36,117 nucleotides of DNA, from contig CAILAH010000013.1 of NCBI GenBank assembly GCA_903832205.1, forward strand, positions 1-36,117, in the 5' to 3' direction. Positions 6,765 through 8,822 of the stretch are shown piece by piece. The position numbers were made by a program, and so were the translations under genes. Each line of letters starts with the position of its first letter. Position 1 is the first letter of the stretch. Source of the stretch: an uncultured Microcaldota archaeon (GTDB lineage: Archaea > Micrarchaeota > Micrarchaeia > CAILAH01). Under the pieces are notes generated by a model, which made no database searches, was not told the origin of the DNA, and saw only the letters and a list, made by a program, of their open reading frames with translations.

Positions 6765-7739
6765 ATGGTTTCACTTGACAAGGACTCAAAGGCCAATTTT
6801 CAGAAGAAGCATTACGGCATAGTGGGCAGCCATTCCGGCGTTGAGATTTGCGGCTGGACAAAAAAATCGCTCACGGGAAGGGGCACCTGCTACAAGGAAA
6901 AATTCTACGGCGTGCACGCCGACAGGTGCGCCCAGATAAGCCCGGCCATGGCCTGGTGCGAGCAGAACTGCCTGCACTGCTGGCGTCCCATGGAAATGTT
7001 CAGGGCGCCAAACAAATTCACAGGCGATATGGATCCTCCAGAACTAATAATCGACGGAGTAATCAGCGAAAGAAAAAAACAACTCAATGGCTTCGGCGGC
7101 GATGCACGCACGCAGCGCACGCAGTGGGAGCACTCCCTCATCCCGGACCACTGGGCAATCTCCCTAAGCGGCGAAGCAACCCTCTACCCCAAGCTCCCTG
7201 AACTAATCAAAGCAATCAAGTCAAGAAAGGAAACAAAGACAATCTTCCTCGTCACAAACGGCCAGGAGCCGGACATGCTCGAGCGCCTCAACAAGGAGGG
7301 TGCGCTTCCCACACAGCTTTACATCTCGCTCATCGCATCCTCAAAAAAGCAGTTCTCCGAGCTCTGCGCCCCATTCTACAAGAACGGCTGGGAGCGATTG
7401 ATGAAATCATTTGAAATTTGGAAATCATTTCCCACCCGCAAGGTAATCCGCATCACGCACATAAAAGGCCTCAACGATTCAGAAGATGATGCCTCCCGCT
7501 TCGCGCAAATAATCTCCTCCGCACAGCCCGATTTTGTCGAGATAAAATCCTACATGTACCTGGGCTATTCGCGCAGGCGCCTTAAGAAAGAGAACATGCC
7601 GGAGATGCCGGATGTTGAGCAATTCTCATCCAATATACTCAAACACCTGAATGATTATTCGCCCGAGGATAAGGATTCCGCATCCCGCATCACCCTTCTC
7701 AAGCGCAAATCCTCCCCCCATACCACCAGAATACAGTAA
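6765..7739 (+). CDS. taw1: tRNA 4-demethylwyosine synthase (Taw1/TYW1), radical SAM
   Basis: CEQNCLHCWRPMEMF radical SAM Cys motif; SLSGEATLYPKLPELI; KSYMYLGYSRRRL. Confidence 0.92.
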   Translation: MVSLDKDSKANFQKKHYGIVGSHSGVEICGWTKKSLTGRGTCYKEKFYGVHADRCAQISPAMAWCEQNCLHCWRPMEMFRAPNKFTGDMDPPELIIDGVISERKKQLNGFGGDARTQRTQWEHSLIPDHWAISLSGEATLYPKLPELIKAIKSRKETKTIFLVTNGQEPDMLERLNKEGALPTQLYISLIASSKKQFSELCAPFYKNGWERLMKSFEIWKSFPTRKVIRITHIKGLNDSEDDASRFAQIISSAQPDFVEIKSYMYLGYSRRRLKKENMPEMPDVEQFSSNILKHLNDYSPEDKDSASRITLLKRKSSPHTTRIQ

Positions 7740-7792
7740 TAGCAAATTGCAAATCAACTGCAATTCCCGTTTGCCAAAGGCAAATGGGCATC

Positions 7793-7868
7793 GTTTCGCA
7801 CATTTGCGAAAGCAAATGGCGCATCGTTTGGCGTTGCCAAACGCTTGTCGCTTTGCGAAAACGCTTGT
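7793..7868. repeat. Nested double-hairpin palindromic element (units 1 and 2)
   Basis: Outer arms gtttcgc (7793-7799) and gcgaaaac+gcttgt (7855-7868) enclose a second unit with hairpins 7802-7817 and 7826-7842+gcttgt. Confidence 0.7.
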
Positions 7869-7944
7869 GCTAGCTAGCAACCCACACATACAGCCCAAAA
7901 TTGATGTGTTTTGCTATAATATTTTTTTGTCACCATATTATTCC

Positions 7945-8421
7945 GTGAAATATTCGATACGGCAGGCAACGGGATTGGATGTTGACCAGATTGTCGGCCT
8001 ATGCGTAAAACTCGCCGAATTCGAGGGCAAGTTCATGCAAAAGAAATCCTCGAATGAGGAAATCTCCAACCGTGTCGCAAATGAGATATTAAACGACAAG
8101 TTCTGCGCCTATTTCATCGCCGAGGAAGGGACCAAGGTGGTGGGCGTGATTAAGATTGCGCACATGGAAAGCGGGCTTGGCAAGGTCTCGGAGGCGTTTG
8201 TTCTTGACCAGTACCGCAAGAACGGCATAATGGAGGCGCTTTTTGAGGAGTCGCTCAAATGGGCGCTCCCCCGCGGAATAAAATCCCTCTACCTTACCGT
8301 TGTGACCGGAAATGACCTGGCCTATAATTACTGGAAAAAGCGCGGGTTCGAATGCGACTCCTACGTGAGCGACACCCTAATCAAGATGTTCAAGGATGTC
8401 GGCGGCATGGTTGCTGGCTAA
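7945..8421 (+). CDS. GNAT family N-acetyltransferase
   Basis: YSIRQATGLDVDQIVGLCVKLAEFE...AFVLDQYRKNGIMEALFEESLKWA; GTG start preferred because the N-terminal part of ORF 7651 has no domain support and lies over palindromic DNA. Confidence 0.8.
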   Translation: MKYSIRQATGLDVDQIVGLCVKLAEFEGKFMQKKSSNEEISNRVANEILNDKFCAYFIAEEGTKVVGVIKIAHMESGLGKVSEAFVLDQYRKNGIMEALFEESLKWALPRGIKSLYLTVVTGNDLAYNYWKKRGFECDSYVSDTLIKMFKDVGGMVAG

Positions 8422-8451
8422 CACTGATGGGGAAGGAGCGCCTCCCCCGCA

Positions 8452-8499
8452 CATTCGCGTGAGCGAATTGCGCATCGTTTGGCTCTGCCAAACGCTTGC
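8452..8499. repeat. Double-hairpin palindromic element (unit 3)
   Basis: cattcgc-GTGA-gcgaattgcgcatcgtttggc-TCT-gccaaacgcttg aligns to 7801-7848. Confidence 0.7.
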
Positions 8500-8548
8500 C
8501 TCGTGTGGTCTACACCCCCCACCCATGAGTAACAGTATTTAGTTGAGA

Positions 8549-8612
8549 AAAAAGAGGGCCGACATTTGCAGCGGCAAATGGTGCCCCTTTTTGCTTTGCA
8601 AAAAGAGGGCCG
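8549..8612. repeat. Double-hairpin element (unit 4) flanked by a 13-bp direct repeat
   Basis: aaaaagagggccg at 8549-8561 and 8600-8612; between them catttgc-agcg-gcaaatg and ctttttgc-ttt-gcaaaaag hairpins. Confidence 0.65.
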
Positions 8613-8723
8613 CGACCGGGAATCGAACCCGGGTCTGGGGATTTCTGCATTTCTGGCATTCTTTTTCGGCGAACCGAAAAAGATGTCCACAGTCCCCCAT
8701 GTTACCATTGCACTATCGCGGCC
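8608..8723 (-). tRNA. tRNA-His (GTG), encoded G-1, anticodon-loop intron 8643-8686
   Basis: Acceptor GCCGCGA/TCGCGGC with extra G-1:C73; T arm CCGGG TTCGATT CCCGG; anticodon stem GGGGA/TCCCC; anticodon at 8688-8690; no encoded CCA. Confidence 0.9.
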
Positions 8724-8758
8724 ATGAATAGGGAGCTCCGCCCCCTATGACCCCGGTA

Positions 8759-8781
8759 GTTTTGCGCCCGTGGCGCAAAAC
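8759..8781. repeat. Perfect 10-bp stem, 3-nt loop hairpin
   Basis: gttttgcgcc-cgt-ggcgcaaaac. Confidence 0.6.
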
Positions 8782-8822
8782 ACGAGGCCATTGCCTTAAT
8801 CGTTAGGGCATTTTTATTAGTC

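Follow-up and report, generated by a model that had tools for sequence, protein, structure and literature searches.

The window analysed here, a single contig of 36,117 nucleotides from an uncultured Microcaldota archaeon, carries small double-hairpin units around a GNAT acetyltransferase gene, and we consider these units to be copies of a non-autonomous archaeal mobile DNA element of the REP/BIME-like (RPE-like) kind, built from two inverted hairpins (probability roughly 0.7). The element occurs in many copies with covarying stems and feet, its insertion sites have exact empty counterparts, copies lie nested within one another, in tRNA introns and inside a gene, and it is absent from orthologous sites. 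This combination supports the REP/MITE-like mobile repeat that a preliminary description of the sequence had proposed.

Copies in the window and their nesting

A repeat search combined with sequence inspection located four copies of the two-hairpin element in the window, one of them nested inside another.

7766..7796, + strand: outer, interrupted element, 5′ part, CC.CG.TTTGCC-AAA-GGCAAA.TG.GG.CA.T.CGTTT (feet CC/GG and CA/TG pair)
7797..7847, + strand: inner double-hairpin element, 51 nt (best-scoring copy, 76 bits)
7848..7867, + strand: outer element, 3′ part, with the remainder of stem 2 and the 3′ foot CTTG (rejoined stem)
8448..8498, + strand: second double-hairpin element, 51 nt (covariance-model match, DNA fold; missing from the GNAT-to-tRNA interval of genome G001)
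8559..8609, + strand: third, divergent copy (repeat search, covariance-model match; foot 1 unpaired)

Two of these units had been described earlier as 7801-7848 and 8452-8499, and both were found in the sequence with their stems and the compensatory T:A to C:G change. Their ends required correction: the first unit runs from 7797 to 7847, its 5′ foot having been missed and one target base included, and the second from 8448 to 8498. GNRA-type first loops are present in both units but are not conserved across the family, in which loop 1 reads AAAC, ATGC, ACAT, ATAA and so on in other copies; they were therefore rejected as a family feature. The 7797..7847 copy consists of foot CG, CA, stem 1 (CATTTGC-GAAA-GCAAATG), G and foot CG in its first half, followed by foot CA, T, stem 2 (CGTTTGGC-GTT-GCCAAACG), CT and foot TG in its second. 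Folded as single-stranded DNA, three window copies gave z-scores of −3.65, −4.67 and −4.90, and no shuffle folded equally well.

The suggestion that one element had inserted into another was confirmed, although the insertion point lies in the 5′ arm of outer stem 2 (CGTTT/TCGC; here and in the junctions below the slash marks the insertion point) and not in a loop as had been thought. When the inner 51 nt are taken out, outer stem 2 becomes CGTTTTCGC-TTT-GCGAAAACG, a perfect 9-bp stem, indicating that the inner element entered the arm of the stem rather than its loop. No other single observation demonstrates insertion as clearly as this restored outer stem.

The copy at 8559 is an exception to the foot rule set out below and counts against our preferred explanation. 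Its last 10 nt are a repeat of its left flank (AAAAAGAGGG), so that this copy can equally well be read as a 38-nt insert flanked by a 13-bp duplication (AAAAAGAGGGCCG). The 13-bp repeat flanks the copy at window positions 8544-8612; other copies show no duplication.

Anatomy, covariation and distribution of the family

The elements are ~48-57 nt long and consist of two hairpins in inverted orientation; at the base of each hairpin, past an asymmetric internal loop, a 2-bp foot closes the structure. The 5′ half begins with foot XY and two unpaired bases, after which come stem 1, a single base that is mostly G, and foot Y′X′. The 3′ half begins with foot ZW and a single base, mostly T, and continues through stem 2 and a further two bases, often CT, to foot W′Z′; the base after the 3′ foot is a pyrimidine of the target. 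The feet were noticed in copies found with a covariance model (R1) built from seven copies with the feet left out; parsing relied on the fixed 6-nt linker, and some of the misses are one-pair parsing shifts. Foot 1 was fully Watson–Crick in 35 of 57 distinct copies against 8.0 expected (maximum 17 in 5000 shuffles) and foot 2 was paired in 40 of 57 against 15.3 expected (maximum 23 in 5000 shuffles), the shuffles treating copies as unrelated and ignoring kinship among them. Pairing of the 5′ end with the 3′ end was at chance (7 compared with 5.8), and the foot rule passed separately in the copies of the own genome and in those of relatives.

In an ungapped alignment of 11 copies, both sides had changed in 14 of 19 pairs, giving 34 such cells where shuffles gave 9.3; the covariation signal was lost when the partners were slid against each other. 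The linker GCGCATC and the end CTTG are near-constant at unrelated sites and across genera. The conserved part is the base of the hairpin, which coincides with the ends of the element, and the arms vary freely when both sides change.

Selection at the RNA level usually leaves many G·U pairs. Here G·U accounted for 8 of 798 stem positions (about 1%), and this near absence points to a DNA-level palindrome under selection on DNA rather than RNA. It bears directly on the other reading in the preliminary description, a structured RNA family, in which a two-hairpin regulatory or small RNA would be kept by selection on RNA structure. The strong covariation favours such an RNA, as do the inclusion of both feet in the RNA folds of two window copies and the position of some copies inside tRNA transcripts. 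We nevertheless judge it very unlikely. G·U is scarce, and in an Rfam search of the window plus 31 further stretches only tRNA scored above the gathering threshold. Copies also run in either direction relative to tRNAs, occur within other repeats and within an ORF, and have no conserved neighbour gene or fixed genic context.

Coordinated change of both arms with no G·U intermediate would also be compatible with replication template switching, which could make and copy palindromes with no dedicated enzyme, the shared feet then being a template-switch hot spot; the left flank that recurs in the 3′ arm of the 8559 copy fits as well. This explanation is improbable, since a defined mobile unit is required to account both for the exact, repeated foot-to-foot boundaries and for a linker and CTTG end that stay nearly constant between unrelated sites and between genera.

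In the source genome (G000; 1.11 Mb, 70 contigs, ~82% complete), R1 gave 84 matches at E ≤ 10, with both strands counted and many matches far below 1e-4. A second model that included the feet (R2) gave 56 matches at E ≤ 0.01 per genome, corresponding by our own count to 41 distinct places, and no match at E ≤ 0.05 in 622 kb of other archaeal DNA; chance is thus excluded. The covariance-model search, proposed beforehand as a check, yielded further copies in related genomes of the class as well as in the own genome. Under strict filters, 25 of 301 genomes of the phylum matched at E ≤ 1e-6, representing several families of one class, and the copies in relatives had the same linker and 3′ end (GCATC ... 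GCTTG) and, in most copies inspected, the same foot rule. A viral or plasmid origin was rejected for want of a convincing match: viral contigs gave no match to a strict pattern and 11 stretches to a loose one, these fitting the model weakly and mostly as partial hairpins, and plasmids gave no element match.

Insertion sites and host genes

Filled and empty sites were compared between paralogous positions at four repeat-internal sites in the own genome. Site CTCTTTTGGGA/TGCCTAAAGAG is filled on contig C36 and empty on C41, with one base differing beside the site; TAGTCCGTCA/CCGCCCAAAC is filled on C14 and C49 (the latter with one change) and empty on C63; GGTTCCCCC/TCGTGTGG is filled twice on C63 and empty on C19; and CGTGTGGTC/TACACC is filled on C19 and C41 and empty on C63 and C25. 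At all four, the two feet form the exact limits of the insert, the target is not duplicated and a pyrimidine follows. Of the 30 copies in which both feet pair, 24 are followed by T and five by C. Flank complementarity at the insertion points was slightly above that of the control (3.5 compared with 3.2 bp), a difference so small that loop-targeting was rejected as a general rule.

Many copies are nested in other short palindromic repeats. The 8448 copy interrupts a host repeat of family B, which recurs elsewhere.

8422..8447, + strand: host repeat family B, left half (CACTGATGGGGAAGGAGCGCCTCCCC), interrupted by the 8448 copy
8499..8519, + strand: host repeat family B, right half (CCTCGTGTGGTCTACACCCCC)

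Family B was found, filled or empty, on C19, C25, C37, C38, C41 and C63. In the form CACTGATGG-GGGGA..TCCCC-CTCGTGTGGTCTACACC (window 8422-8519) it hosts double-hairpin elements at two fixed sites; further occurrences are in introns of tRNA genes and, in G001, in a T-loop insertion.

The genes around the window copies appear to be bystanders.

6765..7739, + strand: TYW1-type wyosine synthesis gene, synteny marker (Pfam Wyosine_form 3e-19, Radical_SAM 2e-13)
7945..8421, + strand: GNAT acetyltransferase gene, flanked by elements (Pfam Acetyltransf_1 6e-13)
8607..8722, − strand: tRNA-Tyr(GTA) with a 44-nt intron (Rfam tRNA, intron-aware ARAGORN)

The TYW1 gene has relatives at 38-48% identity in Diapherotrites/Iainarchaeum, Aenigmatarchaeota, Thaumarchaeota and others; together with the tRNA introns, it marks the organism as archaeal. 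In two genomes of the same family, G002 and G003, only a short spacer without an element separates TYW1 from GNAT, compared with ~207 bases in the window. Within the genus, one further genome (G001) was searched; there the GNAT gene is followed by AAAAAAGAGAGGG/CCGCGACCGGG and then by tRNA-Tyr, with the copies at 8448 and 8559 both absent. The site equivalent to 8559 is likewise empty in G003 (AAAAAAGAGGG/CCGCGACCGG), and the empty-site junctions for this copy are AAAAAAGAGGG/CCGCGACC in G003 and AAAAAAGAGAGGG/CCGCGACC in G001. As relatives have the same gene order without the elements, those around GNAT appear from sequence comparison to be recent relative to that order, and they have no evident function for the GNAT gene. 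Polymorphism of the elements inside a single strain was not seen, which counts against our preferred explanation.

The copy at 8448 starts 27 nt past the GNAT stop codon, which would suit transcription terminators or hairpins stabilizing the mRNA 3′ ends of neighbouring genes, and such a role has been proposed for bacterial REPs (PMC3733652). For the present elements it is extremely unlikely: the stems are not followed by a T-tract, copies are also found ahead of genes, within tRNA introns and in a coding frame, and relatives have the same genes without elements. A terminator role was rejected because no terminator was called at the elements.

Intron-aware ARAGORN analysis placed element copies in a 95-nt intron of tRNA-Pro(TGG) on C24 and a 181-nt intron of a tRNA gene on C38, and a single hairpin in a 130-nt intron of tRNA-Ala(CGC) on C59. 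Copies on C38, C61 and C67, read by eye, fall within T-loop insertions of tRNA genes, and the orientation of elements relative to the tRNA transcripts is of both kinds. The T-loop of tRNA-Tyr in G001 has an insertion, a host repeat of the CACTG..CGTGTGG type; the window tRNA-Tyr is without it.

Several side observations concern these tRNA loci. Introns of ~95-180 nt or more made of nested palindromic repeats were seen at L129 (C10:70-360), L131 (C24:20789-20981), L135 (C59), L117 (C39) and L122 (C63), and the tRNA genes that hold them are mostly missed by default tRNA searches. T-loop-interrupted tRNAs (TTCAAA/.../TGAAAATC) were read by eye at C38:51500-51900, C61:2700-3120, C67:2450-2900 and C41:5300-5450. 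A further repeated unit, GGGGGC/TTCCACCCCCTATGACCCCGG-AGTTTTGCGCCCGTGGCGCAAAACACG, adjoins tRNA genes at window 8733-8790 and on C39 (L016).

One copy lies in a protein gene. On C41, a calcineurin-like phosphoesterase gene (L123 14086-15036) holds a copy within a host repeat, in frame, and the resulting insert of ~35 residues is absent from 13 of 13 aligned homologues. A second segment of ~29 residues (DDGRIGPGKEEAVIGREHKGKITGCGRGN) is also absent from homologues, and on this comparison the gene may hold two insertions.

That several copies, and host repeats too, occupy introns or T-loop insertions of tRNA genes raises the alternative that the elements are retroelements derived from tRNA introns, the excised intron RNA being reverse-spliced and then reverse-transcribed into DNA. 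The lack of target duplication and the presence of a reverse transcriptase in the genome would agree with this, and missing duplications prompted the proposal of an RNA intermediate for mitochondrial elements of Allomyces (cited in PMC2800124). We regard this route as unlikely. The only reverse transcriptase found in G000 (G000:C26:45301-45948; L197 1255-3557) has no element nearby; its own template and variable repeat lie next to it, and from this sequence context it looks like part of a diversity-generating retroelement. It was therefore rejected as the mobilizer. In addition, RVT_1 was present in only three of nine element-bearing genomes, most copies lie outside tRNAs in mixed orientation, and the scarce G·U pairs argue for a constraint at the DNA level. 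The C-terminal end of the ORF beside the reverse transcriptase (GVRPVARDGDGLLDGRRNIGCSGDPGSGF) resembles an N-terminal stretch of the reverse transcriptase ORF (GPVARDNNNLNNRRNINCNNDPGSGF).

Relation to known repeats and possible mechanism of movement

CGTC-tagged REPs, which include Rickettsia RPE-4 and RPE-6 and Neisseria dRS3, have a fixed tag (CGTC, or TGTC/CCTC) and a short unpaired tail, mostly CCA, and the phyla listed for them are bacterial (Di Nocera et al. 2013, PMC3733652). The archaeal elements resemble them in that the hairpins are short, have an outer tag of 4 nt and mostly come in head-to-head pairs, that no dedicated transposase is known and that some copies lie within palindromes or in frame in ORFs (PMC3733652). 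The head-to-head arrangement is seen here as a hairpin 2 that is an inverted hairpin 1, with the outer 4-nt sides outside and model matches on both strands. An in-frame insertion in an otherwise conserved protein gene, as in Rickettsia palindromic elements, was found in one gene, the C41 phosphoesterase. Unlike in the CGTC family, the outer tetranucleotide varies (CGCA, CGTT, CATT, CACG, CCCG, TGCA) and no CGTC tag was found, the tail (one base and the foot) pairs with the first two outer bases, the two hairpins are fused by a fixed 6-nt linker and copies lie in tRNA introns.

GTAG-tagged REPs and BIMEs, which are associated with RAYT, likewise have inverted hairpin pairs in many copies, with recognition probably at the hairpin base. 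However, the ends of the parsed copies here have no GTAG, and no Y1 (RAYT) gene was found in the 82%-complete genome; a GTAG-tagged REP with RAYT was rejected on these two grounds. With MITEs and PATEs the elements have in common that they are non-coding mobile DNA dispersed in the genome, but they lack long terminal inverted repeats, target duplication at clear sites and any parent transposon that we could find. A classical MITE was rejected because the four repeat-internal site comparisons showed no target duplication, and an IS200/IS605-derived element (PATE) is not indicated, as neither PF01797 nor PF07282 (TnpB) was found in G000. The double-hairpin elements of Allomyces (Paquin et al. 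2000, cited in PMC2800124) are also small, two-hairpin units with evidence of mobility and no flanking duplications, a likeness of architecture and insertion style; they are mitochondrial, and paired feet are not among the features described in the available part of PMC2800124. Because both tags were looked for and not found, we file the elements as a variant of the REP-like kind outside the CGTC and GTAG families. No report of archaeal or DPANN REP-like dimers of this kind was found in the literature searched, which covered few subscription journals.

A REP-associated transposase, another check proposed at the start, was not found: G000 has no Y1/RAYT gene (PF01797), in an assembly from which the gene may be missing, and Y1 showed no association with the elements across 34 genomes. 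Y1 occurred in four of 16 element-bearing genomes (with or without G000) and four of 17 element-free genomes, and so did not track the elements; this and the lack of a Y1 gene in G000 count against our preferred explanation. In G038 (L096/L153, G038:C15:626-677), an element interrupts an IS200-like Y1 transposase gene and shifts its frame, although the exact boundary is ambiguous, and other Y1 stretches in this genome are too divergent to provide an empty site. Y1 was rejected as the cognate enzyme, the G038 gene being an interrupted gene and not a REP-flanked transposase.

We infer that a nuclease or transposase acting in trans would recognize the hairpin base (foot and loop) on single-stranded DNA and cut at the foot, and that the excised unit would be rejoined at a low-specificity site 5′ of a pyrimidine, usually T. 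The arms would be free to change as long as both sides change together. More tentatively, and with considerable doubt, the feet may act as guide and cleavage-site pairs for an undescribed non-Y1 hairpin nuclease that moves the element as single-stranded DNA, and nested elements that land in tRNA genes may be a major source of archaeal tRNA introns, both new ones and ones that are growing.

Judged by the covarying feet, the likely recognition site coincides exactly with the ends of the element. The feet would thus offer a direct handle on the movement of transposase-less REPs of the CGTC/RPE type, a question that is open in that literature. In addition, the copies in tRNA introns, together with the host-repeat insertion in the tRNA-Tyr T-loop that G001 has and the window lacks, suggest a source for the gain and growth of archaeal tRNA introns.
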